DNA from: Obelidium mucronatum
Lineage: Eukaryota; Chytridiomycota; Chytridiomycetes; Chytridiales; Chytriomycetaceae
NCBI GenBank assembly: GCA_025765595.1
Contig: JAIVFH010000001.1
Location: 310,001 to 374,000, forward strand
Direction of reading: 5' to 3'
Length of the DNA stretch: 64,000 nt
A program made the translations under genes and the position numbers. Below, piece by piece: positions 1-30,196 of the stretch. Under the pieces are notes generated by a model. That model was not told the DNA's origin. It did no database searches and saw only the letters and a list, made by a program, of their open reading frames with translations. Each line of letters opens with the position of its first letter. Within the stretch, counting starts at the first letter, position 1.

Positions 1-26
1 AAACCCTCACCATCCCCGCCGTCCGT

Positions 27-704
27 ATGCCGATAGCATTCACCCGCAGTCTTTCTCTACCAGTGGCATCTTCTGGATCCAAGCCAAAGGGGATCACCAA
101 GATGAAGGCCTTTTGGTCAACTGGATCAAAGGATTCAAAACCACAATCGTCCTCCGATTCATTATTGACATCACCATCATCCAAAAGAAAAACACCCCCA
201 CCGGCCAATACCAAACCTGATCAACATCCAAACACCGACGCCAGATCGAGCCATGACACTAACCCGCTCGTCAAACCCGATCGGACTCGGTTAAGTGTCA
301 GTTTAGACTCTGACATCAAGACGGAAGGACGACTCAAGGCCTTCCTCAAAAGCCCTGCTTTCCAAAAGTCTCGTTCAATGGTTGATGATTCGGAATTATT
401 TTCAGAAGGCAGGAGTAATAAGGATTTGTTGCGGGAAAAACGATACTCATTGCAAGACTTGACGACATCCGCGAAAGCAAAAGCGACCTTGGAAGTAAAA
501 AAAGCAATGAAAGGATTCGCGTCAGAGTATAAACGGAAATACCTTGGTAATTCCTGCTTTTGTTTTGCGTCATTCACGTGTCTAAGCCTCACTCAACAAC
601 AATAACCTAAAATAGCTCAAATATCGTATGAAAAGTTGGAAAAAAAGAGACCTTTATACCAACAGCTTCTTGTCGCAAACTTGATTGTTGACTTCTTGGT
701 TTAA
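27..704 (+). CDS. Array family gene 1, copy A
   Basis: Two exons: 27-546, phase-1 GT-AG intron 547-615, then 616-704. This gives about 202 residues. The start MPIAFTRSLSLP is chosen because genes 3 and 4 open the same way (MAASIVRSPPPP, MPAALVRTASEP). The N-terminal motif KGITKMKAFWS follows at about residue 22. The middle is Ser/Lys-rich and contains RLSVSLDSDIK. The second exon encodes the family module, AQISYEKLEKKRPLYQQLL followed by VANLIVDFLV. There is no signal peptide or membrane segment, so a soluble, largely disordered protein is likely. Function is unknown. The sequence matches copy B at 5539-6216. Confidence 0.75.
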
Positions 705-1053
705 CGTTTTTTCCCTACATCGGTTTTTGTTTTTCCAATCCAGTTGGCCCGACTCATCCCCAGTATATTAAAGTAAATAAAGTGTATACATATGTATAAA
801 ATAAATGTGTTCTAAACATGATGTAAATCACGTGTTGGTCAGTTTTTAAGGGTTGAAGAATAGCCACAGTTAATCCGATTTCGTTGCCTGAACACTATTT
901 TGCGCACTAATCAAAGTCCACAGCCAATCAGCCTCTTTGTTATGCATACTGTAATTTAAGAACAAAAGCAAGGGGCTTGACTCCCCAGTTGAGCACCAGT
1001 AATATTTGAGATAAATAATAAAAAAAAAAGATCCAAAGAACCAAAACCCCGAA

Positions 1054-1734
1054 ATGGTGTCAATTGAACTTCGCCCGGAATCCTCCCTTTCAAGACGCTC
1101 TGGAATCTTGCTTTCAAAGATCAAGACCTTGTTTTCATGTCACACTGTTCCGCTAGAAACAAGACTGCCGCCAATGAGTGGCAGTGCCCAGGCCGCTCAT
1201 GATGCTGACATGCTTAACTCGCCCTGTATACCATCGCGATACCGTCGCCGATCCTCAAAGCCAAATTCGAATCTTTGCCAAACAGCTATGTGGCCGGAAA
1301 GCATGAGTAGCGGAGATGATGATATTGATGATGTTGGTGAGGGTGAAAAATATGATCAAGACAGCGTGCTGTCAGACTACAATCGACAATCATACCGACG
1401 AAAAGAACGACGTGTTGCGAGGCTGAGTGTCGCTTTGGACACAGACATTCGAAGCCTGAAGATTCAACGCGAATTCCAGTCTCAAGTCTTGACTACAAAC
1501 AAAACCCAATTCAATGAAGTCGTCGATGGGAGCCGAGCGCCGCCACTGTCTCCAGGATCTCTGTTTGAAGAATCCATGGAGCCGCTTTACATCAAACGCG
1601 TGTCTCTTCTACCTGGGTTTGAAAAGAAACTTGTTGCATTCACGTCGTTGGAGAAATTGAAGGAGCCGCGTTTTCGACCTCTTTGGCAACAAGTCTTGAT
1701 CGCCAATTTGGTTCTTGAATTACTCGACTGTTGA
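1054..1734 (+). CDS. Array family gene 2, copy A (intronless)
   Basis: A single 226-codon frame starting MVSIELRPES. The N-terminal motif appears as SGILLSKIKTLFS. The middle is acidic (SSGDDDIDDVGEGEKYDQD) and is followed by RLSVALDTDIRSLK, the same block as in gene 1. The C-terminus is LVAFTSLEKLKEPRFRPLWQ followed by QVLIANLVLELLDC, so the module is present. Unlike nearly all other members it lacks the intron before the module; the frame reads straight through. This is either intron loss or the ancestral state. The copy at 6566-7246 encodes an identical protein. Function is unknown. Confidence 0.8.
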   Translation: MVSIELRPESSLSRRSGILLSKIKTLFSCHTVPLETRLPPMSGSAQAAHDADMLNSPCIPSRYRRRSSKPNSNLCQTAMWPESMSSGDDDIDDVGEGEKYDQDSVLSDYNRQSYRRKERRVARLSVALDTDIRSLKIQREFQSQVLTTNKTQFNEVVDGSRAPPLSPGSLFEESMEPLYIKRVSLLPGFEKKLVAFTSLEKLKEPRFRPLWQQVLIANLVLELLDC

Positions 1735-1993
1735 ATGTGTTTTTTTTTTTGCTCCTTTGAATTTGTGCCTCTCTATCACCATACCTCTATCAATATGAAT
1801 GCCCAGTAAATCAGGTCAAATAATAGCTGCTTCTTTTAAGATATCTGTGGTCTCTTTCTTGGTACACTTTTTATCAGCTGATAATGTTTTGCCAAGGATT
1901 AAGGTTGATTGATGATGTTCACTGAAACGGAAACAAGCAAAAGACACAGAACCAACAAAGAAAGAACCAAACGCAAAAATAGAGGCTACAGAA

Positions 1994-2606
1994 ATGGCAG
2001 CTTCAATCGTTCGTTCACCGCCTCCTCCTCCTTCGGCACCTTCAGGCCTGAAAGCCAAAGGATTCGCGAAACTCCGCTCCTTTTGGTCAACAACAAATCT
2101 ACGAGCCACTGCAGCTGTCGAACCAAAACCAAACGAAAATTCTTCAAAGTCAATGTTACCAAAAATGGGATCGAGCGGGGTCTTGGTGAAGGCAAAGAGT
2201 CTTGATATACTCCGAACCGCCTTTGTTGTCCGCCAACAACCACCCCCTCCTCCAGAGCCCCCCAGCCGCCATCGATTAAGTGTTGCATTGAGCGCTGATG
2301 ATGGGGAATTAAGGTATAAGCCAAGCCTCCAGTTAATTGGGCAATCTTTGGCGGCATCCTATGGAATGGGGAATATCAGGCTTGCTGCCAATGCAAGAAA
2401 TCACAAGAGATATTCGCAGCAAATACCAACCCGCGTTTGAAAAAACATATTTGGGTGAGCAAGAACGCGTTCCCACAATTTCTTGCCAAACTTAACTCAT
2501 TCATCCAAAAGTTCGTGTCTCGTTTGCCAAGCTGGAGGATACTTTCAGCTCAAGATCACTGCACCAGCAGCTTTTAATTTCGAATCTCATATTGTACTTG
2601 AACTAA
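1994..2606 (+). CDS. Array family gene 3, copy A (frameshifted)
   Basis: Same gene as 7506-8117 but with one extra C near 2431, so the frame ends at 2440, just after QQIPT, before the conserved intron and module. The DNA of the intron and second exon (module RVSFAKLED...HQQLLISNLILYLN) is intact downstream. The N-terminus carries a proline run and KGFAKLRSFWS, and the middle carries RLSVALSADD. Because every difference between the copies is a single-base indel, a sequencing error is at least as likely as a real null allele. Confidence 0.7.
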
Positions 2607-3313: not shown

Positions 3314-3951
3314 ATGCCTGCAGCGCTTGTCCGCACAGCCTCTGAACCAGTGCCACCACAAAGTCAAGGGAATGGCGAAGCTCAAATCCCTTTGGTCTCC
3401 CGTCCCGAATGCGTCTACGCCTATTAATCAAGTTGGCACCAAAGAGTCAACTCCTGTCAAGCAAATCCCAAACAGCGTCAGAGACAGAGCTGCTTCTCCC
3501 CCACCAGAGTCTCTAGCAGCTTTCTCTTCTGAAGAGAAACACCCGAAGCGGAGATCGCAGAGCGTGGATCACCGCCGGACTCACCATCGATTGAGTGTAG
3601 ACGTCGAGGACCACTCACTGCAAAGCCTTGCGCACATGCTTCTCTCCAACGACCCAGATGCTTCTATGAGAATTCCAGGAAGGAAATCGAAGCGATCGCA
3701 GCCCCGCTCGGCATCAAAGCCGAGAATCTTGATGAAGAGAGACCCAAGTCTGTCTGGAGGCGAAATCGACAAGGCATATCTGAGTAAGTCTCCATCTTCA
3801 TTTTACAGCTCCTCCACCTTTTTGAAAAAGCCTGACGTTTCTTTCTTTTTCTTTTGTAGAAGACCTCTCATATGAGAAACTACGACAGACCGCAAGGCCT
3901 CTTTTGCAACAACTTCTTGTTGCATCATTTATTGTTGAATTGCTGGACTGA
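3314..3951 (+). CDS. Array family gene 4, copy A (frameshifted near the start)
   Basis: Starts MPAALVRTASEPVPP and is then thrown out of frame by one extra base near 3359. Downstream of that point the frame equals copy B (KGMAKLKSLWSP onward). The conserved phase-1 intron and the terminal exon are unchanged. Copy B at 8825-9461 reads cleanly, so this copy is either a frameshift allele or an assembly error. It is best annotated by reference to copy B. Confidence 0.7.
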
Positions 3952-4155
3952 TCCCAGCTAATTCCTTGTTTGTTCAGTTTTGTACTTAGCCACTTTTCGT
4001 TTTCAAACAATCGTATAATAAAAGCTCGCACGCCAACTTCATACTATTTCATTCACCAGTTCATGGGCTATTCAGTATCTTTAGTTTTGATTGCTTGAGT
4101 CCAAGCTGCAATTGACTTTGAGGAAAACACGTGCAAAAAAAAAAAAAAAAAAAAT

Positions 4156-5345
4156 ATGCCTTCAGCAACAGCTCATCACAACTATGATTCAACATCTACC
4201 ACGTCGTCATCAAAGACTACTCTGACCAATATTAAGGACAAGGGTCTCGCTACATTCAAAGCCCTGTTTCAAAGTGGGACCCAAAGTAGTGCTGGCAAAT
4301 GGAGTGGTCGAACGTCTGTCGACAATGAAACCAAGCTTCAAGTCGTCAATAGTGACAACGATTCACTTCAAACAGTTGGGATTCCTGTGACGCTTCTAAA
4401 TGGATCAAATCAAGTCGGTGACCCTATGCTGTTGGCAGAGAGCGATGAGAGTGATAGCGAAGATGATAAGGGATTCGACAGGCTAAGGAATGAACTCCTT
4501 TCAGGCGGAAGCTCATATCAATATGAACAGCAAGAGGAGCCTGTAGAAGATGTTCGATCGTCACTCTCTGATGTAGCGACTTTGAAACGAGCGTATTCAG
4601 AATCTGTGATGGGATTGAGATCATCAGTAGATGGTGATTTGCCACCCCCGCTTCGGAAAAAGGTTGTGAAGGAATTTATGGGTTATTATTTAGGTATTTG
4701 CTTTATTTGTCTTTGTGTAGTGGTTGGCGTGTTGTTTGGTGGTCAAGTTTCGGAGGTAGCAAAGATGATGAAACACAGTTATCCCTGCATCAAGCAGAAA
4801 ATTGGATGCAGCCATCAGATAACGATCTTCTCACTGAGCTTCTGAGTCGATCGATGGTTATGACACAAGAACCCACAACGATGGTTGGAGGAAACACTTC
4901 CAAATTTAGCGGGATTCTTGAAGTCGAAGTTGACCAACGGCCGTCACTGGAAGATTGGAATTGCATACCTAGGTCAACATCAGACCTTAATGAAATGGAT
5001 ATAGATGAAACACATGATTTGGACTTTTCTGGATCATCACAGGAGCTCGAGAGTCGGTTGGCAAGTCTTTTGCAGCCCGTTCGATCACATTCGCCAAGTT
5101 CTCTCTTTGATCGACAATCGAATTACTTGTTACGTGAGTTGTGTTTCTACACTGATTATCAACACCTTGTGTCTTTGTGCTTGGTTCTGATTCCTTTGAT
5201 TTTTATGGGTTTTGTACGTTTAGACGCAATCTCTCGACGAAAGCTCAACCAGTTACAAAGACCTTTATCGCAACAAGTTCATATTTCTAATTTACTCTCG
5301 CGATTGCAGTATTTTAGTGGTCCAGTGTACTCTTACACATTGTAG
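4156..5345 (+). CDS. Chimeric array gene: 5' half of gene 5 joined to the 3' half of another member
   Basis: Exon 1 (4156-4693) is that of gene 5 (KGLATFKALFQSG, acidic SDESDSEDDK, ending EFMGYYL). The repeat breaks at 4737, inside the following intron. Using the acceptor at 4755, exon 2 (4756-5133) stays open and in frame, starting GSKDDETQLSLHQAENW and ending in acidic, Ser-rich sequence. A phase-1 intron (5134-5223) then leads to the module AISRRKLNQLQRPLSQQVHI (5224-5345). All three exon phases agree, giving about 345 residues. The module differs from that of gene 5 proper at 10266-10351, so the protein looks like a product of recombination within the array. The first acceptor site is inferred. 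Confidence 0.6.
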
Positions 5346-5538
5346 GGGCTCAGATTGTCATTAGTTTATCTTTTTCAGCCCTCTTGAAATAAATCAGTAA
5401 TTCTAATTTCTTTTGTAACGGGAAGAAACTTAAAAAATGATAAGTCAGAGTTTGTGGCTCACCAAAAAAAAGCCAAGCACTGCCAATTTCTTATCATCCA
5501 AAACTATACGGAAAACCCTCACCATCCCCGCCGTCCGT

Positions 5539-6216
5539 ATGCCGATAGCATTCACCCGCAGTCTTTCTCTACCAGTGGCATCTTCTGGATCCAAGCCAAA
5601 GGGGATCACCAAGATGAAGGCCTTTTGGTCAACTGGATCAAAGGATTCAAAACCACAATCGTCCTCCGATTCATTATTGACATCACCATCATCCAAAAGA
5701 AAAACACCCCCACCGGCCAATACCAAACCTGATCAACATCCAAACACCGACGCCAGATCGAGCCATGACACTAACCCGCTCGTCAAACCCGATCGGACTC
5801 GGTTAAGTGTCAGTTTAGACTCTGACATCAAGACGGAAGGACGACTCAAGGCCTTCCTCAAAAGCCCTGCTTTCCAAAAGTCTCGTTCAATGGTTGATGA
5901 TTCGGAATTATTTTCAGAAGGCAGGAGTAATAAGGATTTGTTGCGGGAAAAACGATACTCATTGCAAGACTTGACGACATCCGCGAAAGCAAAAGCGACC
6001 TTGGAAGTAAAAAAAGCAATGAAAGGATTCGCGTCAGAGTATAAACGGAAATACCTTGGTAATTCCTGCTTTTGTTTTGCGTCATTCACGTGTCTAAGCC
6101 TCACTCAACAACAATAACCTAAAATAGCTCAAATATCGTATGAAAAGTTGGAAAAAAAGAGACCTTTATACCAACAGCTTCTTGTCGCAAACTTGATTGT
6201 TGACTTCTTGGTTTAA
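5539..6216 (+). CDS. Array family gene 1, copy B
   Basis: Exon 1 is 5539-6058 and exon 2 is 6128-6216, with the same sequence as copy A. Here the DNA upstream is visible: an in-frame ATG at 5437 would add 34 residues beginning MISQSLWLTKKK. I prefer 5539 because the opening MPIAFTRSLSLP aligns with the openings of genes 3 and 4. It is the first complete member after the 775-base unique spacer, and its promoter region is therefore that spacer, which also ends the chimeric gene. Confidence 0.75.
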
Positions 6217-6565
6217 CGTTTTTTCCCTACATCGGTTTTTGTTTTTCCAATCCAGTTGGCCCGACTCATCCCCAGTATATTAAAGTAAATAAAGTGTATA
6301 CATATGTATAAAATAAATGTGTTCTAAACATGATGTAAATCACGTGTTGGTCAGTTTTTAAGGGTTGAAGAATAGCCACAGTTAATCCGATTTCGTTGCC
6401 TGAACACTATTTTGCGCACTAATCAAAGTCCACAGCCAATCAGCCTCTTTGTTATGCATACTGTAATTTAAGAACAAAAGCAAGGGGCTTGACTCCCCAG
6501 TTGAGCACCAGTAATATTTGAGATAAATAATAAAAAAAAAAGATCCAAAGAACCAAAACCCCGAA

Positions 6566-7246
6566 ATGGTGTCAATTGAACTTCGCCCGGAATCCTCCCT
6601 TTCAAGACGCTCTGGAATCTTGCTTTCAAAGATCAAGACCTTGTTTTCATGTCACACTGTTCCGCTAGAAACAAGACTGCCGCCAATGAGTGGCAGTGCC
6701 CAGGCCGCTCATGATGCTGACATGCTTAACTCGCCCTGTATACCATCGCGATACCGTCGCCGATCCTCAAAGCCAAATTCGAATCTTTGCCAAACAGCTA
6801 TGTGGCCGGAAAGCATGAGTAGCGGAGATGATGATATTGATGATGTTGGTGAGGGTGAAAAATATGATCAAGACAGCGTGCTGTCAGACTACAATCGACA
6901 ATCATACCGACGAAAAGAACGACGTGTTGCGAGGCTGAGTGTCGCTTTGGACACAGACATTCGAAGCCTGAAGATTCAACGCGAATTCCAGTCTCAAGTC
7001 TTGACTACAAACAAAACCCAATTCAATGAAGTCGTCGATGGGAGCCGAGCGCCGCCACTGTCTCCAGGATCTCTGTTTGAAGAATCCATGGAGCCGCTTT
7101 ACATCAAACGCGTGTCTCTTCTACCTGGGTTTGAAAAGAAACTTGTTGCATTCACGTCGTTGGAGAAATTGAAGGAGCCGCGTTTTCGACCTCTTTGGCA
7201 ACAAGTCTTGATCGCCAATTTGGTTCTTGAATTACTCGACTGTTGA
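6566..7246 (+). CDS. Array family gene 2, copy B (intronless)
   Basis: Identical 226-residue product to 1054-1734. It starts 350 bases after gene 1 ends. Notable features are the absence of the conserved intron, an acidic stretch at about residues 89-108, RLSVALDTDI at about residues 122-131, and the module at the extreme C-terminus ending ANLVLELLDC. An A-rich leader with a run of ten A lies just upstream of the start codon. Confidence 0.8.
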   Translation: MVSIELRPESSLSRRSGILLSKIKTLFSCHTVPLETRLPPMSGSAQAAHDADMLNSPCIPSRYRRRSSKPNSNLCQTAMWPESMSSGDDDIDDVGEGEKYDQDSVLSDYNRQSYRRKERRVARLSVALDTDIRSLKIQREFQSQVLTTNKTQFNEVVDGSRAPPLSPGSLFEESMEPLYIKRVSLLPGFEKKLVAFTSLEKLKEPRFRPLWQQVLIANLVLELLDC

Positions 7247-7505
7247 ATGTGTTTTTTTTTTTGCTCCTTTGAATTTGTGCCTCTCTATCACCATACCTCT
7301 ATCAATATGAATGCCCAGTAAATCAGGTCAAATAATAGCTGCTTCTTTTAAGATATCTGTGGTCTCTTTCTTGGTACACTTTTTATCAGCTGATAATGTT
7401 TTGCCAAGGATTAAGGTTGATTGATGATGTTCACTGAAACGGAAACAAGCAAAAGACACAGAACCAACAAAGAAAGAACCAAACGCAAAAATAGAGGCTA
7501 CAGAA

Positions 7506-8117
7506 ATGGCAGCTTCAATCGTTCGTTCACCGCCTCCTCCTCCTTCGGCACCTTCAGGCCTGAAAGCCAAAGGATTCGCGAAACTCCGCTCCTTTTGGTC
7601 AACAACAAATCTACGAGCCACTGCAGCTGTCGAACCAAAACCAAACGAAAATTCTTCAAAGTCAATGTTACCAAAAATGGGATCGAGCGGGGTCTTGGTG
7701 AAGGCAAAGAGTCTTGATATACTCCGAACCGCCTTTGTTGTCCGCCAACAACCACCCCCTCCTCCAGAGCCCCCCAGCCGCCATCGATTAAGTGTTGCAT
7801 TGAGCGCTGATGATGGGGAATTAAGGTATAAGCCAAGCCTCCAGTTAATTGGGCAATCTTTGGCGGCATCCTATGGAATGGGGAATATCAGGCTTGCTGC
7901 CAATGCAAGAAATCACAAGAGATATTCGCAGCAAATACCAACCGCGTTTGAAAAAACATATTTGGGTGAGCAAGAACGCGTTCCCACAATTTCTTGCCAA
8001 ACTTAACTCATTCATCCAAAAGTTCGTGTCTCGTTTGCCAAGCTGGAGGATACTTTCAGCTCAAGATCACTGCACCAGCAGCTTTTAATTTCGAATCTCA
8101 TATTGTACTTGAACTAA
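7506..8117 (+). CDS. Array family gene 3, copy B
   Basis: Exon 1 is 7506-7965, the phase-1 intron 7966-8022 (57 nt, GTGAGC to AAAAG), and exon 2 8023-8117, for about 184 residues. It opens MAASIVRSPPPPPSAPSG, followed by KAKGFAKLRSFWSTT. The middle has a second proline run (PPPPPEPPSRHRLSVAL). The last exon gives VRVSFAKLEDTFSSRSLHQQ then LLISNLILYLN. This is the intact version of the gene that is frameshifted in copy A. Function is unknown. Confidence 0.75.
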
Positions 8118-8824
8118 CGTGACTTTCACCAACTTGACGCACCTCTTCTTGAATAAAACTTACCCTGTCGTACCTCATTTTGCTATGCAGACAGTGATTT
8201 CAGCTGAATAAAGAGAGTTGTTTTTGAAACATTTCTAGCAACATCGATTCGAACCCTAAACAAGGTTCGTTTCCAAGAAATCAAAGCCAAGTCCAACCTC
8301 AGCACGCGCTGAGGCAAGCACGCCAACTCATCGCAAATCTTGATCAAAGCTGGATGAGTCAGATAGACTCTTTAGGGCAACCTAAAAGATACAAATTAGT
8401 TTATTCATTGCTTATTAATCCTGTGGACGGGTAAGAATCCGTAATAGTGACTGGGAACGGTATAGATAATAGCCCGGCTGTTACATAAGGAAAGTACTTG
8501 GTTGCGGATGTCGTTGAGTTGACCGGGATTGTGTATTTCTTTGATCTCCAACAGAAAAAACGTGTAGCGGACTAAGCCGTGGCGTCCTATTTTATTACCA
8601 GAGCTCTGTGGCCTGCCGTGCTCTCCATCCTCTCATTAGCGTGCTCATATTACACGACCTCGTTTTATATCGACAACCACTGAACAAGAGTATGTTCAGT
8701 TATGATAAGGGAAAAAGCGGATTGCGTCACAAACAAATTTTAATTGGAAATTTTTCTTTCAATGTGCTTGCATTTTGCGGCCTTATCATCACAAAAGAAA
8801 AGTTAGCCCAAATCATAAAAAACA

Positions 8825-9461
8825 ATGCCTGCAGCGCTTGTCCGCACAGCCTCTGAACCAGTGCCACCAAAAGTCAAGGGAATGGCGAAGCTCAAATCCC
8901 TTTGGTCTCCCGTCCCGAATGCGTCTACGCCTATTAATCAAGTTGGCACCAAAGAGTCAACTCCTGTCAAGCAAATCCCAAACAGCGTCAGAGACAGAGC
9001 TGCTTCTCCCCCACCAGAGTCTCTAGCAGCTTTCTCTTCTGAAGAGAAACACCCGAAGCGGAGATCGCAGAGCGTGGATCACCGCCGGACTCACCATCGA
9101 TTGAGTGTAGACGTCGAGGACCACTCACTGCAAAGCCTTGCGCACATGCTTCTCTCCAACGACCCAGATGCTTCTATGAGAATTCCAGGAAGGAAATCGA
9201 AGCGATCGCAGCCCCGCTCGGCATCAAAGCCGAGAATCTTGATGAAGAGAGACCCAAGTCTGTCTGGAGGCGAAATCGACAAGGCATATCTGAGTAAGTC
9301 TCCATCTTCATTTTACAGCTCCTCCACCTTTTTGAAAAAGCCTGACGTTTCTTTCTTTTTCTTTTGTAGAAGACCTCTCATATGAGAAACTACGACAGAC
9401 CGCAAGGCCTCTTTTGCAACAACTTCTTGTTGCATCATTTATTGTTGAATTGCTGGACTGA
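8825..9461 (+). CDS. Array family gene 4, copy B
   Basis: Exon 1 is 8825-9293, the phase-1 intron 9294-9369 (GTAAGT to TTTGTAG with a strong pyrimidine tract), and exon 2 9370-9461, for about 186 residues. N-terminal motif VKGMAKLKSLWSPV; basic, Ser-rich middle with HRLSVDVEDHSLQ; several RRS/RKS sites that could be kinase targets (inference). The module is KDLSYEKLRQTARPLLQQLL then VASFIVELLD. It is the intact counterpart of 3314-3951. Confidence 0.78.
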
Positions 9462-9665
9462 TCCCAGCTAATTCCTTGTTTGTTCAGTTTTGTACTTAGC
9501 CACTTTTCGTTTTCAAACAATCGTATAATAAAAGCTCGCACGCCAACTTCATACTATTTCATTCACCAGTTCATGGGCTATTCAGTATCTTTAGTTTTGA
9601 TTGCTTGAGTCCAAGCTGCAATTGACTTTGAGGAAAACACGTGCAAAAAAAAAAAAAAAAAAAAT

Positions 9666-10351
9666 ATGCCTTCAGCAACAGCTCATCACAACTATGATTC
9701 AACATCTACCACGTCGTCATCAAAGACTACTCTGACCAATATTAAGGACAAGGGTCTCGCTACATTCAAAGCCCTGTTTCAAAGTGGGACCCAAAGTAGT
9801 GCTGGCAAATGGAGTGGTCGAACGTCTGTCGACAATGAAACCAAGCTTCAAGTCGTCAATAGTGACAACGATTCACTTCAAACAGTTGGGATTCCTGTGA
9901 CGCTTCTAAATGGATCAAATCAAGTCGGTGACCCTATGCTGTTGGCAGAGAGCGATGAGAGTGATAGCGAAGATGATAAGGGATTCGACAGGCTAAGGAA
10001 TGAACTCCTTTCAGGCGGAAGCTCATATCAATATGAACAGCAAGAGGAGCCTGTAGAAGATGTTCGATCGTCACTCTCTGATGTAGCGACTTTGAAACGA
10101 GCGTATTCAGAATCTGTGATGGGATTGAGATCATCAGTAGATGGTGATTTGCCACCCCGCTTCGGAAAAAAGGTTGTGAAGGAATTTATGGGTTATTATT
10201 TAGGTATTTGCTTTATTTGTCTTTGTGTAGTGGTTGGCGTGTTGTTTAACTGAAACCCATGAAAGCTCACATATCATACGACAAATTGGACGAAAAAGAC
10301 CGACCTATGGTGCAACAGTTACTCATTGCTCGTCTCATAACAAACCTGTAG
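9666..10351 (+). CDS. Array family gene 5 (parental form)
   Basis: Exon 1 is 9666-10203, the phase-1 intron 10204-10265, and exon 2 10266-10351, for about 207 residues. It starts directly after a 20-base poly-A run. The N-terminal motif is weaker (KGLATFKALFQSG). The middle is strongly acidic (ESDESDSEDDKGF). The module is AHISYDKLDEKDRPMVQQLL then IARLITNL. Compared with the chimeric copy, two offsetting homopolymer changes (C4/A6 here, C5/A5 there) swap PPPLRKK for PPRFGKK while keeping frame. Confidence 0.75.
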
Positions 10352-10634: not shown

Positions 10635-11279
10635 ATGGTGCTACACACTCGAATGCCTTCCTTCAAGTCGCTCTGGCCAAAGACAAAAGACACTGCGAGT
10701 CCAACTTCCAAGCAGGGAAAGACGTTGTGGCTATCTATCTCAAGCCATAGAGCCAAATCGAAGCTCGCTGTGGTTCCAAATGATTTAGAAAACTCTATTC
10801 CAAGCATGACTCGCTCATCAACTGATTCGGAGGATTCAGACTCCGATGAAGATTCCACCACACCTCAGCCACTCTTCAGCATCAACAAACAATCACACCC
10901 TTCTAAAGCGACCAAATCTAATTTTCCATCTGAATTCTTTGCTGTGAATGCGACGGATGGTATGGACTTGATTCTGTATAATGCTGCGCCTTCGGCTATA
11001 CCGGTACTATCGAAAACTGAATTCAAAGCACTCTCGAGAGCAATCAGCAAGATAATTGAACCAGCAACTCCTTATTCGTCACCCACAGATGTTCCTTCAC
11101 GACCAGAACAAGACGAGGATCCAACGGAATATTTAGGTGACTACTTTTTGACTTCACCAAAAGAATTGTCCCAACGTAGTCGCTGTTCTTTAGATTGGGT
11201 TTCTTTTCAAAAGCTGTCAAACAAGAAACGACCTCTTATTGAGATGGTTCTTATCCAGAACCTAATGTCAAACCTTTAA
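10635..11279 (+). CDS. Array family gene 6
   Basis: Exon 1 is 10635-11136, the phase-1 intron 11137-11193 (57 nt), and exon 2 11194-11279. The intron has no in-frame stop, so the frame also reads through it, but splicing restores the family layout: EYL, then DWVSFQKLSNKKRPLIEMVL, then IQNLMSNL. The N-terminus has the motif very early (MPSFKSLWPKTK). The middle contains SSTDSEDSDSDEDSTT. The spliced product is about 195 residues. Function is unknown. Confidence 0.72.
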   Translation: MVLHTRMPSFKSLWPKTKDTASPTSKQGKTLWLSISSHRAKSKLAVVPNDLENSIPSMTRSSTDSEDSDSDEDSTTPQPLFSINKQSHPSKATKSNFPSEFFAVNATDGMDLILYNAAPSAIPVLSKTEFKALSRAISKIIEPATPYSSPTDVPSRPEQDEDPTEYLGDYFLTSPKELSQRSRCSLDWVSFQKLSNKKRPLIEMVLIQNLMSNL

Positions 11280-11438: not shown

Positions 11439-13010
11439 ATGTCAAGAACAACTCGGACAGATGCATCTCTCCGGTCTGGCTACTCAAGCTCCTCGAATGA
11501 TGCATCGACCATCATTCTTACTCGATCCAAGAAGAAGTTCTTTGCCGGCGGAGGCGGTGATGAGTTTACCACTCACGTCCAACCACAACACCCACAACAA
11601 CAGCACCAACAGCTTCCATCGACCCAGAAGCAGTCATTTATCAGCTCTTTAACCAAATCGTTTGCTCTGAAATCTGATTTGTCATGCTGTGGTCACAGCG
11701 CCGGAGAGAAGATTGCCAAACCAATCCAATATCCAGCACTTGTGTTGGTCAAGCCCAACCTCAGACCAGCCTTAAATTCAATCAATTTGAACGAACAGCC
11801 AATATACCCTCCTCTTACAACAAATCTGGGAATTGAAAGGCCATCTATTCCGACAAATCGAGGACCTACCCCCCCAAGACGAACCGTAAAGAAAAGAACT
11901 TCCAGCATCAGCCTAAAGTCGTCGTTCGAAACAGTAACGCTGGATACGGCCCGTTCCGACTCTGGAAGAAGTCGCTCATCGCCTTCACCCACAAGGTTCT
12001 TTCATGTTGAAACCACGGATGATTCCGTCCATGAACACAAACGGCAAGAGTTTAATAATCAGTTTATTATTGAGGAAACGGATAATGTTGTGCCTCCAAA
12101 GCGAAAGGAATCGCTTCCTAAAATCGAATGGATGAGGCAAGGGAGTTTTACGCATCGTATTCCCCCCCTTCGTTTTACCGAGCTATGTCTTGACGATCAT
12201 GACGAGATGGAGGAACAAGTTGGAATGAATTCAAACCCGGCATCCGTTTCGGCGTTACGAGCCCTGCCATTGACGGCGGTTGCGAATCCAGAGCGCCAAA
12301 ACCTGAGGTTGAGCACTTCTCCGCCCAAAGTGGAAGCGTTTTGGGAAGATGTATTTCATATCTATAATGCTGCGGATCGACCTAGTAGTGTCCGGGAGCG
12401 CCGAGAGAGTGCAGAGAGTGTGGAATCTTGGACATCTTCATCACTCGGGATATCGACAAGTAAAGTACCTCTGATTTTGGGTATGCGAAATCTTGGCGCT
12501 CTTCAGGACCAGTCCGGTACCGATCCTTGTGCTGAAATTCCTGGTGCGGAAGCCGACGAGGACTCCGATGGCTTATCCGATTCTTCATCCGGAATATCGA
12601 CATTAATTGAGGGCTGCTTGTCCAAGGATAATGGTTTGAGTCAGCAATTCTTGTGTTATTGTGTCTGTTGTTTGGATTCCAACCTTATTCAATCGAACTA
12701 GATAAAAACAAACTGTCAGCCTCAGTGTCTAAGCCATGTTCTTTCGATTTCACAGTGATTTCCAGGCGTGCTGTTCGTGAAATTTGTGAGTAGACACTTT
12801 TTTTTTACTTAGTGTGGCTCAATTAAACATCTCTTTGTGCCATTGATTAATGAATAAGGCCGGATTTCTCACGAGAAGCTTCATTTTGAAAACCGTCCGT
12901 TACTCCAGCAATTACACATCGGAAGTATTTTGGCGAAAGCTCCCTCTGAATTCCGGATCATCGTAAACGAAGATGTGTCTATGGCCAGAATCTTAAATTC
13001 ATATTTTTAA
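11439..13010 (+). CDS. Array family gene 7 (longest member)
   Basis: The first exon, 11439-12654, encodes about 405 residues. It has basic N-terminal RSKKKFFAGGGG, a His/Gln-rich stretch, several PP/RR Ser-rich segments, and an acidic tail rich in SSSGIS. The last exon, 12859-13010, gives CRISHEKLHFENRPLLQQLH then IGSILAKAPSEF plus a longer tail ending LNSYF. The intervening 204 bases are longer than other array introns and could hide a small extra exon. The phases agree for a direct join (L-C-R-I-S). Confidence 0.62.
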
Positions 13011-13263: not shown

Positions 13264-14082
13264 ATGTCAGTCATCTCTACCTCCGAGTTCATCTTTGTCG
13301 ATGCCAAACCTGTCAAGGACAGTAATCCCATCAGCAGACTCTTCTCCAGCTTCTCGAGCAGCAAGAAGAACAGCCACAAATCAAAGGCGAAGGCAAACCA
13401 GATTGCAGCCTCTGCCAAGAAGCAAAACAGCAAGAACCTGTCAGTGCTGCGTCTGCCGACAGACATCGGCCTCCAAAACACCAACATTGACGCCACTGTC
13501 GCCAACCACACCCTCTACTTCATTCTCTTCCTCTCAACTCTCAATTGTTGAATCGGATCGCGAATCAATCTGTTCAGACGCTTCGTCATTGTATTCGTTT
13601 GAAGAAAAGTCGGAAGATGAGCTGACGCTGGACGACAGCACTTCGAGCCGATTCAGCCTCTGTCTGGAAGACTCCAAATCTTCCAACCATCAAGTCGAGG
13701 TTCTCGATATTCCTTCTTATGAAGAAATGAAACGGATATCAAGCGATTCATCTTACAGTTGAGTGTTTAGTTTAATAGTGCGGCTGCTTTATTGAAGCTC
13801 GTGTGCTAACAATTTGTCTATTGTTTTTTAGGTGCTGGAACCCAATCTGCTCTAACACTGAATGATGCCGAGTTACCCTACTCTTATCGTGAACTCTGTA
13901 AGTAAAATTTGCTTTTTCGGCATGCAGAAAAAAGAAAATAATTTACTTATTTCTCTCGTTGCTTAGATATGATATCTTTTCACAAATTGTCATCGGAAAA
14001 GAAACCGATGCATCAGCAAGTTTTGATCTCGAACTTCATAATGACAACATTGGCGCCACATCTCCCTGAAGAGATCCTATAA
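13264..14082 (+). CDS. Array family gene 8 (one probable frameshift)
   Basis: Starts MSVISTSEFIFVDAKP and carries NPISRLFSSFSSSKK as its N-terminal motif. The coding signal moves by one frame somewhere in about 13450-13490, where one extra base must be removed to continue into TPLSPTTPSTSFSSSQ. Exons: 13264-13757, 13832-13897 (22 codons) and 13967-14082. The last exon encodes YMISFHKLSSEKKPMHQQVL then ISNFIMTTLAPHLPEEIL, after a phase-1 intron. It has one more intron than genes 1-6. Function is unknown. Confidence 0.6.
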
Positions 14083-14346: not shown

Positions 14347-15179
14347 ATGAACACCGCTGCCGCGGATGTCTATCCCTTAGACCCGTTGATGGCAGCTCTG
14401 TTTTCAGGTCATCAGTTGACCATGCTCTTTACATCCTTATTGAAGAAGGTATCTTGGAAATCGCGTTCAGGATACAAAACGAATTCAGGGAAGGAGGATT
14501 CCCCACCATTACCTCGCAATGCAGTCCAGTAGCATTGCTGCTGACAAGACGCGAAAAACTGTCAAGAAAAAGAATTCGATTTGGACAGTTGTGTTGCGGC
14601 ATCGAAAGTCGAATGAAACCCTGTATCCTCCCAATGACATCAATAACCCTTGGATTCCACCATTTCACCGCGATTTAACACCAAAATACCCACCGATTAC
14701 GTACGGAGCTTATGGGACAATAATGCTTCCAATGGACCTGTCACCCTTCACAGTTCTTTTATCCTTGAACATTACTCCTGTCGAATCAACTGAAGAAATG
14801 CAAGCTGACAGTGTTTTTCGGATCTGGTTGACAACGCAGAGAGTTACTCCGGATATTGTAGATCAAAGCTGGATGCAGGAAGACGATGGTGACTTTGACT
14901 CTGGGGCTTGCCTTTTTGAAGGAGGGAAAGTTCCGGAGATTTTGGTTCCTGACGGTTATACGTATTTTCAGCGACGCACTCTTCTTGCTTTGTGTAAGAC
15001 ACGTGCTATTTACTGTTTGTGTGGGCGATGGTCCTAATTGTTTCAATTCAGATGATTTATCAGTGCAAAAGTGGACTGCCCCACCTATCCGACCGACCAA
15101 AGATAAATCGCTGAGCCGAATTCTTGCAATCAATATAATCCTTAACAAAACAATCAGCGAGCTGAATAGATACTTATAA
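14347..15179 (+). CDS. Array family gene 9 (divergent; N-terminus uncertain)
   Basis: The last exon, 15052-15179, follows a phase-1 intron (14994-15051) and encodes YDLSVQKWTAPPIRPTKDKS then LSRILAINIILNKTISELN, a degenerate module in which KL is KW. The exon before it is open from 14519 (MQSSSIAADKTRKTVKKKNS). An upstream frame from ATG 14347 joins it if one base near 14528 is dropped, as in neighbouring genes. Unlike its neighbours the middle is folded-looking, with a Pro/Tyr-rich block and few acidic runs. It is the most divergent member. Confidence 0.5.
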
Positions 15180-15279: not shown

Positions 15280-16438
15280 ATGGAAACCCGGAGATACCAC
15301 GACATCCACAGCGCCAAACGCGCCAGTGATCGCACGCTGGCTGAGCTGATTTCGTGTTTACCGCCAGCCAATCCAGAAGTCTCGACCCGTCCAATTGGTC
15401 TATCGACTTTAGGCAACAACAAAGTGGGTGTGGCATCCCTTTCAGCTTCTGAATACCATCATCCTTCTCTCAAGAAGTCGCCCTCGTTTCCTGATTTGAA
15501 CGAGCGACTGCTCTCGCCTTCGATCCGATCGCCAACGGACTCTGTGAACTCTAGCTACAGACACAACACCCAATCAGCAACAGTTACTCCCACGACACCG
15601 TCGCTCGATGACGCTGTAGAATCATGTTTGGACTTTTACGAGAACGATTGCATGTCTGTGTTTTCGTTTGATGCAGATCGCGAAGAAGTGCTCGATGTTC
15701 GGTTATCGGTGGAGCCACCTGGCGTATTGCATGACGAGAAGCCCGTGATTCCAATTCGCACAGAGTCGCTGAATACAATCAGAGAGCCAATCTCTCTTCG
15801 GGCGTCAAAGAAACTGCGTCGGCTTCACCTGGAGTTGACTGTCCAATCGCAATTGGAAGTTGGGATTCCACCATATCAGCCCCAACTGCAAGAATCTTTT
15901 GCCCTACCAGAACTACTTGTGAATGAAAGCGAAGAGGATGATGATGAGGATGACGTTCCACTTGCGTCTATTCTTCAATGGAGACGCCCTTCCCCTGAAA
16001 ACAATATGATTGCCGAAGAGGCTGCAACTATTCGACCCAAACCAATTCCTTTGGGGGGGCTTTCAACAACGCCAATTGACATCGAATGCTTTGGAGAATT
16101 GTCGCTTAGAAGAGGATCTTGGCTCTCTTGAATCTCCAGCAGTCTCAGTTCATTGACTCATGTACACCAAGTCCATGTCATGACAATGATCGAGAAGCAG
16201 AAGAAATTGAATTAATTCAGAGGATAAGTGAGCTACTTGTAACGTTTTTTGTTTCTTCTTTTGTGTTCTCACATAGTTTCCCTAGGTGACATATCGTGCA
16301 CCAAACTCGGCGGAGAGGAATCGACCGTTGATTCAAATTATTACAATTATCAATATGATGACGCCTTTGTTGGAAAAGTACCCTGATCTGGTCACGGATT
16401 TCGCAGTGGACACATGCGAACCGGTCGACCTTAACTAA
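15280..16438 (+). CDS. Array family gene 10 (several single-base frame breaks)
   Basis: Opens METRRYHDIHSAKRASDRT and runs 283 codons, with Ser/Pro-rich sequence, LDVRLSVEPPG (the RLSV block) and an acidic run ESEEDDDEDDVPLAS. The frame then needs three one-base corrections: in the G7 run at 16053-16059, near 16149, and near 16309. With these it continues to a phase-1 intron (16228-16285) and the module SDISCTKL then RPLIQIITIINMMTPLL, plus the EKYPDLVTDF extension typical of members 10-15. I judge sequence error more likely than decay because the module is well kept. Confidence 0.5.
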
Positions 16439-16732: not shown

Positions 16733-17877
16733 ATGAAGCATCAGCCACTGGAATTCTCGGGCATTGCCCTTCCCTGCAAACCGTTTCTCAGCAAACTGTT
16801 TCTTGGAAAGCAAGCCTCTATGACTACGAGCACAACTGTGACTGAAGCATCGACAGCATCTGAGGCTCAGCCGAAATCCAACGCAATTGCTCCTCACTTT
16901 TCGATACTATTGCAACCGAAATGTGCGTCGAATGGCGGGAAAGTTATCGAATCAGGAGACGCTCGAACACAGCGGCAGTGGCGCACTTCAAGGAGGCACC
17001 AGTCGAAGCACCTCACAGAAAATAAAACAATCAGCGAAAATACAATTCCTTTAGGTGATTACTTCTCCCACTTCATAGCACTTGGAGAACTGACTCACTA
17101 ACTTTTTAAAATCAACTGTAGAGCCTGAGGCTGCTACCAACCAGTCTGACGTTTCGCTGCCTTTGTTCAAACAAGCTTTTCAAATTGCGTCTCGAAAATA
17201 CTCGGGCGTACTATCACATACACAAGTTAATGTCTCAACCGCAGTCATATCGGACACTCCACAGTGTCGGAATGAAACGAGATTCTATTTGACGCGAGAA
17301 CAACTCCCCCAACGATGCGCCTCTTTAATTGTACCTGCTCGCTATGCTACACTACTGGAAAGTCAGGATCCACAACTATATATGTCATTGCATTCCGATG
17401 TTGATGATTGCGCTGCTAATGACGACGAGGATGACGCGGAAACGATCGAAGACGACGCATTCCACCTATCCGACAGTGATGATTCCGAAAACACACTTGT
17501 CTGTCATGATTATGAGATTCACTTTGAAGATCCCACGAACTTGGACTTGACGTTCTCATTTCACCACCATCCGAAAAGCAACCAACACCCGACCAAATCA
17601 CCCGAGTCAATAAGTTTGGAAACTGCGAAACGGCTATGTATGTGCCAAAGATTTTTTTTAATTATTAATTCTATTGGCGACTGTTTTCTAACGTTCTTGA
17701 AACGTTTTTACAGATTTAAACTCTTACTCTAAATTATGCTATGGAAGCCGGTCGAATGAACGACTAATCGCGATCAGGGGGCTGATGGTCAAGTTGGTTA
17801 AAGCGCATCCGGCGTTGATTCTCGCTCTTCAACAGGACCAAACAACAACGAAGCCCCGACCTGAGATTCACGACTGA
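16733..17877 (+). CDS. Array family gene 11
   Basis: Three exons with consistent phases and no frame problem: 16733-17054, 17122-17637 and 17714-17877, for 333 residues. It starts MKHQPLEFSGIALP and has FLSKLFLGKQ as its N-terminal motif. A long acidic block (ANDDEDDAETIEDD) lies before the last intron. The last exon gives YLNSYSKLCYGSRSNERLIA then IRGLMVKLVKAHPALI. It belongs to the second subgroup, in which RPLxQQ is replaced by SNERxIA-like sequence. Function is unknown. Confidence 0.7.
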
Positions 17878-18090: not shown

Positions 18091-19235
18091 ATGTCCTCCA
18101 GCTTCCCACCACAGACAACGTCAAGTCCTCGCGAATCGATAGGCATGAGACAAAGACTCGTGCTACAATTTGGGTCTTTGAAATCCAAACTCCAACAGCA
18201 ACATGGTGGCCACTTGAATGACGAAAGTGATACTTTGCCAGAATCGAAGCGACTTACGTTGATCCGATCTTCCTTGGATGCATTGTCGCAAGTCTGGAAT
18301 AAACGGTCGCCAAAGTCTCGACATCAAGCCCCCATCACGAGCGCGAGCGCTGCAAAAAACCTCATCGAGAAAGAAAACGATCAAGCATTCTCATTTGTTC
18401 GGCTGGATCGTGCGCAGTCATCGTTTCGGCGCGGAATGATTTACCTTTGGATGCCGATGCTGACAGCAAACCAACTCCAAAGCCCGAAAGAATGGAAACA
18501 ACGCGAACCATGCCATCGAATGTCGCTAAAAGGCGTTTTATTAGTGAGAATGACCGCCCTGTCATTCCAAAAGTTCAATCCCACGCCGAAACAGCAAGAG
18601 AGCTCGTTGCCAGTGCGCTGGATGGAGGTTATCCGGTCAAGCCAAAAGTACGCGGAAAAATCAATGCAAAAACCCAAAGGTTTAGTAAATTCCGGAGAGA
18701 TAGTGTCGACTTTGAGCAAGACCCCGCGGTTGCTTGGTTTTTGTTTCATGGGCGTGCGCTGAAGTCCAGACCAAGGAGTCGGTTGCTACAACCACAATAC
18801 TTGAATGCAAACGACAACGAGGAGAGTGATGGTAATCTTGTCACGTTAGGAAACGCGAGGCGATTGTGTATGTTATTTTTCTGGGCCAGGAAGGCGCTTA
18901 CGTAATCAAAACACTCATTCGAAATTTACTTCTATTTAGACCTTATATCTCACACGAAATTGAGTTACGCGAGGAAACGCAGTCACGAAAGAGCCCTTGC
19001 CATTCATCAGTTTATGTCAAGACTGATGGACGAGTTTCCAGCCGTTATAGGACCTCTGCAAAATGGTCCACCGTCCAAGATAAAGATGCTCGTTCCACCG
19101 CCGGCATCTGCTACTGTTGCTCAATTATATAGGGGCGGTTCTGGACGCGGAGGCGGTGGTAGATTGCTACGTTCGAAAAGCGCTGTCATTGACGAAGATG
19201 ATATTCCACTGGCGTTATTGGGTGGAAAGTCATAA
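18091..19235 (+). CDS. Array family gene 12 (one frame break)
   Basis: Starts MSSSFPPQTTSSPRESIGM with FGSLKSKLQQQ as its N-terminal motif. The coding frame shifts once in about 18420-18435; one missing base fits. It then continues as DLPLDADADSKPTPKPERM through a basic and acidic middle to NARRL. A phase-1 intron (18868-18939) precedes the module YLISHTKLSYARKRSHERAL then AIHQFMSRLMDEFPAVI. The protein carries on with a glycine-rich tail (RGGSGRGGGGRLLRSKS) not seen in other members. Confidence 0.58.
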
Positions 19236-19471: not shown

Positions 19472-19534
19472 AGTTCTTTTGATTAAATAAATCAACTCGT
19501 CTTTTGCCGAAATTCACTCAAAAGCCCCCAACAA

Positions 19535-20232
19535 ATGCCAGTACGCAGCTGGAAACTAAAAATCAGTAGCAGCAGCTTGATCAAGAAGCTGGGCGGCGGC
19601 GGCGTAGAGCAGGACCGGCCGAAGGATGACGTTGTCAACAGCCACACAGCCACATTTGGTGGTGGTGCTTCAGTTGTAAAGCCGACAACGTTTACTTCAA
19701 CAGCCTCAGTTCAACTAGTCCAGGAGCCAAACAGCAGTACATCTGCGGCTCCGACGAGGTCAATGTGGGAGCACGGGTGCTGCAGTGGAACTGATAATCC
19801 TGACGCCGACGTTGGCCATGGGGATAATCAAGTCAAGCAGCTTCAAGAAAGCAAAGAAAGAGAAGATGCGCATCAAGAATCTCGGCTGGTCTCTTTGGAT
19901 GATGTGCAGGATATATGTATGTATATGAGATGACTAATACAAAAAACGTCAAAATCAATCAATCAAAGGTTTTTTGACCTTCTCTTGCTCTCTCTCGCTT
20001 TCTTCTTATAGATCTTATTTCGTATTCGAAACTGATAAATGGACAATGCTCTAATGAACGTATGATTGCTGTCAAGAGAATCATGAAACGCGTTATGCAG
20101 GACTACCCAGAAGTCATGTGGACGGTCCGACAAAACGTGAAAAGGATGTCTCGTGTAGGAGGATTGAATGTGGAAGAAGGCGTTGCCAGTGAAGACCCAT
20201 TTGACCAACTTTTATACCAGCTCATGCGCTGA
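19535..20232 (+). CDS. Array family gene 13
   Basis: Two clean exons, 19535-19916 and 20012-20232, with a phase-1 intron that has a long pyrimidine tract, for 200 residues. It begins MPVRSWKLKISSSSLIKKLG. The exon ends ESRLVSLDDVQDI, which resembles ESRVVSLEDGQDI in gene 14 and marks the two as closest relatives. The module is YLISYSKLINGQCSNERMIA then VKRIMKRVMQDYPEVM, followed by a 40-residue tail. Function is unknown. Confidence 0.72.
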
Positions 20233-20246
20233 TTTGTCTGATACTC

Positions 20247-20272
20247 TTTTTTTTTTTTTTTTTTTTTTTTTT
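20247..20272. repeat. 26-base poly-T tract
   Basis: Uninterrupted T run 15 bases after the stop codon of array gene 13, at the head of the 300-base spacer leading to gene 14. The rest of the spacer (20273-20544) holds no gene I recognise. Confidence 0.9.
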
Positions 20273-20544
20273 GAATCCCTTCTCATAATCCCTTAATTCA
20301 TGGCGAACAAACTGCGTCGTTTCTTTTAAATAAAGTTTGCATCAGATAAAAAGGCTGCCGCGGCATTTTGCAACTTGTGTCTTTTGCTGCACGCACTTGA
20401 TTAAAAAAAATTGTGTCCTGATTTGATTTGTGTCTCCCAAATCTTGGAAAGGCCTTTTTTTTTGACTAATACAGACCAGGGCCTTTCGGGAGCTGAAAAA
20501 AAACGAGAACTCCTAGGATACCGCTTTCTCTCTCTCCCTCTTCC

Positions 20545-21829
20545 ATGGTCAGCCGCTCTTAGTTCAACATCTGCCCTTAATCGAAGGCCTTCTCTCTTTG
20601 CGGCTTTCAAGTCGACTCTCAAGAGAAGCACATCGCTCTCTGAACCTCATACATCTACTTCTACTTCTTCTTCTTCTCCAGGTTCCTCCTCCTCCTCTTT
20701 GCTCTTGAAAGAACGGTCACCTTCATTAGACGCTTTCTTGTCTAAAAAATCAATGAGCATTTCCAACCAAGACCGGAAGCATGGATCAGCAGCCTCTTCC
20801 GACGGAACTCAAGCGCCAGCGTAGTCTCAAACCCGGAACAGAGTCAACTATACTTGGACGGTAAACGGTGAGTTCGGAATGAAAGGGAAAAAAATAAGAA
20901 GGGTTGGGACATTGAACACACTTTTTGCTCTCTCTCCCTCTTATCATCACAGATCGCTTACTGTTTCAAGAAGGTGCATGTACTGAAGATTCAGACTCAT
21001 TCGATGGAGATACGCTTGTTTCGAATGGAAGCGATGTGTCGGTTGACGATGTGGATGAAATCGGGTTGGAAAAACACCCTGGATCAGGAACAATTCTTAC
21101 AACGGCAGAGATCCCGCAACAACAACAACAACAACAGCGGCAGCAACAGCGGCTACAGCAACAAGAGGAGTATGCGGATGAATCGAATCATCCTGTGCTG
21201 CAACGGAAAAACTCACGAAAAGAAGAACGGTCAATTCGTCGTCGGTTTGCTGATGAGTTGATTACAGTGCATACTCCGCTGTTGGTTCATGTTATTTCAG
21301 CTGTAACTCAGTATGAAGACGATGGAGCCAGGGTCGCTGCATCTGTTGATCAAGAGGTGGCTGTATTGGAATCACGTGTTGTCTCTCTCGAAGACGGTCA
21401 AGACATTCTTCCAGTAGATCTACCACGCACAAATTCTGAAGAAACACTGGTAGATTTCTGTGGAGAGGAAGACGGTTCATTAGTCAATGCTGTTAGCAAG
21501 GATGCTGTTGATGATGAGGAGGAACATGTTTTCCAAAATGAGACGCCGGTTTTCCAAGAATTGGACATTGCGACTGTCAAACGAATATGTAAGTTTTACT
21601 TGAATTTTGAATTTCTATTCCCATGTTTTTTGATATTTTTTTTTCGTCAGATTTATCTTCTTTCATGAAATTATATACTGTGAAGCCCGTTAAACATCGC
21701 GAGAGGCTTCTCTTTATAAATTCAATCATGTGGAGACTGGTTTACGAATACCCGGAGCTTGGTGATGCGCTAGCGAGAGACTGCCAGGTTCCTGCACCGC
21801 CTTACCCGCCTCCAACAGCCATCTCTTGA
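20545..21829 (+). CDS. Array family gene 14
   Basis: The last two exons are clear: roughly 20953-21588, then a phase-1 intron (21589-21650) and 21651-21829. The module reads YLSSFMKLYTVK, then RERLLFINSIMWRLVYEYPEL, with a proline-rich end. The middle exon has a Gln run (eight CAA/CAG codons) and acidic DVDEIGLEK. The first exon (RRPSLFAAFKSTLKRS as N-terminal motif, then poly-Ser) has no in-frame ATG. ATG 20545 fits if one T is removed near 20555, and a second correction is needed near 20805. The first exon-exon join is unresolved. Confidence 0.55.
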
Positions 21830-30131: not shown

Positions 30132-30196
30132 GATTTGGACTGTCTTTTAATTTTTTTTTTGGCACTGCCACATCAGTGACATCACCAATCGTTCAT

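Follow-up and report, generated by a model that had tools for sequence, protein, structure and literature searches.

The 64,000-nucleotide window analysed here (C1:310001-374000) carries, on its + strand from 27 to 21829, a run of co-directional short genes whose last exons encode a common protein module. Most of these genes have two or three exons with eukaryotic-type introns, and the last exon, of about 28-98 residues, usually starts x-x-x-S-x-x-K-L; in group A, the Zds_C-type modules of the array, the module is encoded by the last exon and ends close to the stop codon or right at it. An earlier note made from the DNA letters alone had described this arrangement, which our analysis bears out for position, orientation and the small SxxKL last exon of most genes, and had taken the family to be unnamed, which it is not. 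Judged by sequence comparison, the module is the Pfam domain Zds_C (PF08632).

An array of genes ending in a Zds_C module

The Pfam scan covered ten modules, seven from group A (genes 1-6 and 8) and those of genes 10, 12 and 13, with a curated Zds_C cut-off of 25 bits. The gene 8 module scored 34.5 bits (E 1.7e-8), or 31.7 bits with the full gene model. Six of the seven group-A modules matched Zds_C, five of them below the cut-off: genes 1, 2, 3 and 4 at 18.3, 19.7, 19.7 and 15.4 bits (13.5, 17.4, 17.0 and 13.3 bits as full-length models) and gene 6 at 23.7 bits for the unspliced segment and 20.2 for the spliced full model. Gene 7 likewise remained below the cut-off, with 17.0 bits for its C-terminal part and 13.0 at full length. 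Zds_C was the sole Pfam match for the modules of genes 1, 2, 3, 4 and 6, for gene 7 and for an isolated member at 57.8 kb, and the best match for gene 8; the scanned array proteins had no other Pfam match above cut-off, and sub-cut-off matches to PAH, DUF5474, TAF1C, IPP-2, DUF3431, SR-25 and CDC26 were dropped. Gene 5 had no Pfam match either as a module or as a full-length model, and its membership comes from our own module profile (leave-one-out score 35.9 bits). Because gene 8 exceeds the curated cut-off of a named family, we reject the description of the family as unrecognised, a claim that by the earlier note's own account would fall with a significant match to a named domain family.

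Searching the genome (48.3 Mb, 694 contigs) with PF08632 at E up to 10 gave 14 matches, of which five exceed the cut-off. Ten lie in the array on contig C1 (six) or on contig C247 (four), and the six on C1 represent four genes: gene 2 three times, gene 6, gene 8 and the upstream member gm2, which scored 22.1 bits, below cut-off. The upstream members gm1, gm3, g0a and g0b were absent among these matches. Contig C6 carries three more, all above cut-off, one in a protein at C6:169140 (58.6 bits) and two in a pair at C6:239147 and C6:248377 (39.4 bits each). A match on C433 (15.3 bits) was unconvincing on inspection.

Our own profile, of the kind the earlier note had proposed, was built from 11 modules chosen by eye and run against 4858 open reading frames (ORFs) of at least 20 amino acids from a 94-kb stretch of C1 and parts of C247, C6 and C433. 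It recovers its training members by construction, and only the others count as independent. Members were found on C1, C247, C6 and at 57.8 kb; beyond the training set these comprised two further array members (independent E-values 8e-8 and 5e-7), the C6 copies (5e-10 to 1e-9) and the 57.8-kb member (1e-3; 17.2 bits, and 15.9 bits against Zds_C, below cut-off). Leave-one-out scores ranged from 29.2 to 47.7 bits for 15 modules, 13 from the array and two from C6. A PDB sequence search with the module alignment returned three matches at E 0.67 or worse, all designed or synthetic helices and none a relative.

The earlier note counted 15 members starting at position 27. The array is real, and the window holds 14 distinct genes, one chimera and four repeat copies, the repeat having been overlooked, as well as the 57.8-kb member (Table 1). 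Nor does the array begin at 27: five further members lie upstream, gm1, gm2, gm3, g0a and g0b, so named by us, and take its beginning to at least 10.5 kb before the window. Upstream members stand on C1 at 299.43, 300.85 and 302.06 kb, two of the three having been in the profile training set, and g0a and g0b are intact on C247 only. By sequence, the array totals about 19 genes, 13 clear and about six divergent short paralogues. Resolved models encode proteins of 184-458 amino acids whose bodies differ from gene to gene. In the window we found neither an Rfam match reaching the gathering threshold nor a tRNA.

Table 1. Members of the Zds_C-type array in the window (positions of the whole window)
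Feature	Position	Strand	Details
Gene 1, repeat copy B	27..704	+	exons 27-546, 616-704; module AQISYEKLEKKRPLYQQLLVANLIVDFLV
Gene 2, copy B	1054..1734	+	single exon; Zds_C match at protein residues 201-223
Gene 3, copy B	1994..2606	+	frame interrupted in copy B
Gene 4, copy B	3314..3951	+	frame interrupted in copy B
Chimera, gene 5 5' half (to 4737) + g0b 3' half	4156..5345	+	module DAISRRKLNQLQRPLSQQVHISNLL
Near-exact repeat of 1-4737, one of three tandem 5.5-kb units	5513..10247	+	
Gene 1, copy C	5539..6216	+	
Gene 2, copy C	6566..7246	+	
Gene 3, copy C	7506..8117	+	exons 7506-7965, 8023-8117; module VRVSFAKLEDTFSSRSLHQQLLISNLILYLN
Gene 4, copy C	8825..9461	+	exons 8825-9293, 9370-9461; module KDLSYEKLRQTARPLLQQLLVASFIVELLD
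Gene 5	9666..10351	+	exons 9666-10203, 10266-10351; module AHISYDKLDEKDRPMVQQLLIARLITNL
Gene 6	10635..11279	+	exons 10635-11136, 11194-11279; module DWVSFQKLSNKKRPLIEMVLIQNLMSNL
Gene 7	11439..13010	+	exons 11439-12633, 12756-12785, 12859-13010; module CRISHEKLHFENRPLLQQLHIGSILAK
Gene 8, uncertain 5' end (alternative ORF from 13264)	13301..14082	+	exons 13301-13757, 13832-13897, 13967-14082; module YMISFHKLSSEKKPMHQQVLISNFIM
Gene 9, uncertain start	14519..15179	+	exons 14519-14993, 15052-15179; module divergent
Gene 10, divergent	15280..16438	+	SxxKL and RPL...YPDL module halves in different frames
Gene 11	16733..17877	+	three exons; divergent group-B module YLNSYSKLCYGSRSNERLIAIRGLMVKLVKAHPALI
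Gene 12, 5' part uncertain	18091..19235	+	last exon 18940-19235; end DEDDIPLALLGGKS
Gene 13	19535..20232	+	exons 19535-19916, 20012-20232; group-B module
Gene 14, uncertain 5' end (open frame from 20916)	20916..21829	+	last exon 21651-21829; group-B module
Isolated member, last exons only	57702..57935	+	end SLSDHKLLFSTHRPLSQLVAISNTMARIIEQHPDLF; between groups A and B

Window positions 1-4737 recur at 5513-10247 with 0 mismatches and 6 gaps; genes 1-4 therefore occur twice in the window, and three times on the contig. The repeating unit of about 5.51 kb stands three times on C1 (303.1-319.7 kb) and once on C247, and the only differences among its copies are length changes of one base, most of them in short runs. 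The chimera stands at the head of each unit, where C1 has 591 bp of the gene 5 5' half in place of about 685 bp that run from the end of g0a into the start of g0b, and long homology is absent at both junctions. The triplication could be either the product of unequal exchange between identical gene 5 halves or an assembly fault. Across the array as a whole, module similarity drops with distance (Mantel r -0.54 over 17 genes, a value reached by 0 of 5000 permutations; r -0.25 in group A alone, 13 genes, 187 of 5000), as would be expected from local tandem duplication, with the value of -0.54 reflecting the two module groups for the most part.

Constraint, a shared intron and the divergent members

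Contig C247 (39,931 bases) aligns in pieces to C1:283.4-324.7 kb at 92-98% identity and looks like a second haplotype of the array locus. Between the two, genes 1-8 differ at 46 synonymous and 37 non-synonymous positions, so that the non-synonymous (pN) and synonymous (pS) rates are 0.0087 and 0.0349, a ratio of 0.25 (binomial p 5e-10 against neutrality). Per-gene ratios run from 0.12 to 0.63, the value for gene 8 resting on 1 and 2 differences. Divergence is 1.5% in coding sequence, 3.5% in introns and 2.4% in intergenic sequence. Genes 12-14, compared with contig C450, show 22 and 24 differences (ratio 0.33), none of them in gene 12; genes 9-11 were left out of the haplotype comparison. Because pN/pS is 0.25, genes 1-8 are coding and under purifying selection. 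Within the species, the ratio also contradicts the earlier note's view that the protein middles are nearly free to vary, which stands only in that the paralogues cannot be aligned by eye.

The array shares an intron as well as a module. Wherever it can be resolved, the predicted last intron falls at the same residue and in phase 1, in all 18 array-type genes and in C6:239147. For seventeen genes and C6:239147 it was placed with an automatic rule, the strong donor/acceptor pair being taken where the rule gave several candidates; the rule missed the intron of gene 8, which was taken from the hand model, and gm2 has one alternative candidate in phase 2. Gene 2 is intronless, gene 10 was left out of the comparison, and C6:169140 has an open frame across the position and so lacks the intron there.

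Genes 9, 11, 12, 13 and 14 have no Zds_C Pfam match, nor does the gene 10 module, and Pfam by itself does not establish their membership. We nonetheless read genes 9-14 as diverged Zds_C members, mainly because of the common intron position. The module profiles point the same way. The 15 Zds_C-type modules matched the modules of genes 11-14 (group B) in a profile-profile comparison at E 1e-4 and probability 58, and none of 200 column shuffles did as well (best shuffle 14.8, real 22.0). When single modules were scored against the group-A profile, 0 of 1000 shuffles equalled the 57.8-kb member, gene 12 or the RPL half of gene 10, and 4 of 1000 equalled gene 13. The reverse test, against the group-B profile, scored 11 of the 15 rows and the 57.8-kb member: C6:169140, gene 6 and the 57.8-kb member were equalled by 0 of 1000 shuffles, gm3 by 1, C6:239147 by 4 and five further modules by 21-35. 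The end of gene 12 (DEDDIPLALL, from Table 1) also resembles that of the C6:169140 protein, DDDIPLALLPTFRS (DDDIPLALL).

Genes 11-14 end in [YFH]-P-[AE]-[VL], close to the [YH]P-[DAE]-[LV] ending that the earlier note gave to its genes 10-15. Gene 10 departs from it, its YPDL lying in another frame than its SxxKL. The module there is split over ORFs 16243-16383 and 16286-16435, and at 16243-16438 one frame holds SxxKL and a second one RPLIQIITIINMMTPLLEKYPDLV; by sequence, this would be either a sequencing error or a decayed gene.

The same note saw an N-terminal KLKSFW-like motif in most members. Tested on 16 sequences with seeds taken by eye from genes 1, 3, 4 and 5 (gene 8 in two versions; gene 10, gm2 and gm3 left out), the motif is borne out independently in genes 2, 6, gm1 and g0a (equalled by 1, 3, 0 and 10 of 500 shuffles) and finds no support in genes 7, 8, 9 and 11-14 (47-314 of 500).

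Proposed docking on PP2A-B55 and competing explanations

Structure prediction, which the earlier note had suggested, favours a helix-loop-helix module. An alignment-based model with C6:169140 as query and the array modules aligned to it has helices at 3-23 and 29-45 joined by a loop, at a mean predicted local distance difference test (pLDDT) of 78.6 and a predicted template-modelling score of 0.45. This is the fold published for Zds1 on B55: in passages of PMC11446282, the Zds1 helix-loop-helix, both modelled and tested there, occupies a conserved pocket of B55; its i and i+4 residues are hydrophobic, a loop arginine, R23, pairs with B55 D340, and i+2 is E27. In the same passages, CDCA4 places its arginine at i+2. 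PMC6981662 identifies Zds_C as the part of Zds1 that binds Cdc55. Mapping Zds1 numbering onto the array by taking the RPL arginine as R23, as the R-to-E spacing of four suggests, we found L or M at i in 13 of 13 group-A modules, V or L at i+4 in 13 of 13, and a basic loop residue in 12 of 13. In genes 11-14 the residue at i+4 is still I or L and all four have R at i+2; with contact residues changed, these members may have another way of binding B55 or none, and gene 9 appears too diverged for judgement on B55 binding.

The bodies look disordered, by composition and in the single gene 2 model. That full-length, alignment-free model, a hint only, has a mean pLDDT of 51.7 with 123 of 226 residues below 50, and helices at 13-28, 102-157 and 205-224. 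The earlier note's proposal of a docking helix joined to a variable disordered body thus holds in form, given the published Zds_C-Cdc55 motif, the helix-loop-helix model and the composition, with B55 as the putative partner. A stretch of human B55, used as query, found four exon matches in the genome, two each on C29 and C361, which we read as one gene in two alleles. Endosulfine/Igo (PF04667) has one locus, its best exon above cut-off.

With a probability of about 0.7, we interpret the array as a tandem expansion of Zds-type proteins that act as adaptors or regulators of PP2A-B55. By analogy with published Zds1 work, the second helix of the module would lie in the substrate groove of PP2A-B55 (Cdc55), its hydrophobic i and i+4 residues in the B55 pocket and its loop arginine paired with an acidic B55 residue. 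The disordered, paralogue-specific bodies could recruit different targets, carry phosphosites read by B55, or place PP2A-B55 at different sites. Since there appears to be one B55 gene, about 19 docking modules would face one B55, and the members may be exchangeable adaptors that compete for it and so tune cell-cycle, nutrient or polarity phosphatase output. A bolder version, which we offer tentatively and consider doubtful as a whole, takes the locus as a cassette of adaptors used combinatorially by a single PP2A-B55: the hairpin would have been duplicated about 20 times onto independently evolved disordered bodies, the docking face of genes 11-14 re-engineered (polar i, arginine i+2) towards the CDCA4 solution, and the formation of chimeras and the triplication of the block would still be altering copy number and composition from one haplotype to the other.

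Several observations weigh against a Zds-type adaptor array. The array proteins are much shorter than Zds1 and Zds2, and the remainder of a Zds protein would therefore be absent or unrecognisable. The array splice sites are predicted. Allele length differences not divisible by three fall in exons of genes 7, 8, 12 and 14, so these models are partly wrong or the assembly is faulty at those places. Among the array modules scanned, gene 8 alone passes the Pfam cut-off and gene 5 is unmatched, and the hydrophobic i residue is lost in all four group-B modules (N, H, N and R in genes 11-14). These last two points, together with bodies that in most paralogues are unrelated to each other, would also suit a correct Zds_C ancestry with the B55 role lost, the hairpin having been repurposed for another partner or for homodimerisation and the bodies being unrelated in function. 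We consider that unlikely: hydrophobic residues at both i and i+4 in every group-A module, and a basic loop in all but one, would hardly persist on a docking surface free to change. Single-module scores are also uneven. Genes 9, 11 and 14 do no better than shuffles against the group-A profile (166, 78 and 242 of 1000), and against the group-B profile 511 and 545 of 1000 shuffles do as well as gene 2 and gm2, respectively. The former result, the missing Pfam matches of genes 9-14 and a profile probability of just 58% would fit two unrelated adjoining families, genes 1-8 being Zds_C and genes 9-14 another family with a convergent SxxKL. The intron position and phase common to genes 9 and 11-14, the profile match that 200 column shuffles failed to reach, the 57.8-kb member, intermediate in both directions of the shuffle test, and the ending that gene 12 shares with C6:169140 make this decidedly improbable, more so than a repurposed hairpin.

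That the array is degenerate or non-coding, or largely an assembly artefact, is suggested by the single-base length changes in short runs that alone separate the three 5.5-kb copies, by the single unit on C247 and by the interrupted frames in copy B and gene 10. It is very unlikely for the array as a whole, because C247 independently carries genes 1-8 under constraint; those genes are thus genuine, and just the copy number is doubtful. Least probable of all is that the modules are B55 binders of the SERTA-domain or CDCA4 type instead of Zds. Their SxxKL pattern is SERTA-like. Ten modules gave no match to SERTA (PF06031) at E up to 10, in a search whose HMMER filters drop most weak matches; the genome search gave two sub-cut-off matches, on C51 and C11, both outside the array. 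Passages of PMC11446282 do put Zds1 and SERTA proteins together as helix-loop-helix B55 binders.

Neighbouring genes, known Zds proteins and significance

Three neighbouring - strand ORFs at 33425-37401 resemble, by eye, another family of like layout: a KSMF/KSLL/SALF-like N-terminal start, a low-complexity middle that in two of the ORFs contains RKSVRF or RRSVSF stretches, and C-terminal parts that are much alike, in one case within a downstream frame. None of the three has a Pfam match. Because they show the same layout, the Zds_C array may carry its N-terminal motif independently of Zds_C.

After the array, on the same strand, 21951-24651 holds two ORFs for diacylglycerol acyltransferases (PF03982). 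A 355-bp repeat pair (27820-28174 and 28909-29263, 92.7% identical) sits in two - strand ORFs whose products look by eye like small secreted cysteine-rich proteins; the one tested had no Pfam match. Two adjacent small - strand proteins at 29535-30787, related by eye, have weak PH-like (bPH_1) similarity, the better match reaching 27.3 bits against a cut-off of 27.7. A further local duplication, of 267 bp and 91% identity, occupies 38095-38360 and 39611-39877.

Zds1 and Zds2 of budding yeast and zds1 of fission yeast have a C-terminal Zds_C and a helix-loop-helix like those of the array, for which docking on B55/Cdc55 is presumed by analogy. Parts of PMC6506691 and PMC3701715 report that Zds proteins bind PP2A-Cdc55 and affect its location and activity, and describe them both as inhibitors and as promoters of PP2A-Cdc55 functions. 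Budding yeast has one pair of Zds paralogues, according to passages of PMC6506691, whereas one array here holds the 13 clear and about six divergent members. Of the relatives on C6, C6:239147 has the array's phase-1 intron and C6:169140 a DDIPLALL-type end like that of gene 12, whereas the C6 open frames continue for about 190-240 amino acids after Zds_C and the group-A array module stands at or near the C-terminal end. C6:239147 (+) and C6:248377 (-) form a nearly identical inverted pair about 9 kb apart, which is either an inverted duplication or an assembly effect. SERTA, CDCA4 and IER proteins dock on B55 by a like hairpin according to PMC11446282, and the array has no detectable sequence membership among them. 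Endosulfine/Igo proteins are likewise small PP2A-B55 regulators, but act as phospho-dependent inhibitors through an unrelated motif.

Our literature search met no published account of a Zds_C array, a result that leaves room for one elsewhere, and no paper naming both Zds1 and a chytrid. The family is known; what is unusual is to have so many variants of the Zds_C hook side by side, an arrangement that suggests a set of interchangeable phosphatase adaptors. A review terms Zds1/Zds2 Saccharomycetales-specific yet names a fission-yeast orthologue. If the source organism is a fungus outside the range of Saccharomycetales and fission yeast, Zds proteins would be wider spread and far more expandable than this review implies. 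And if some 19 diverged docking modules on different bodies do face one B55, the array would be a natural library with which to ask what residues determine affinity for B55 and whether the adaptors compete with one another.

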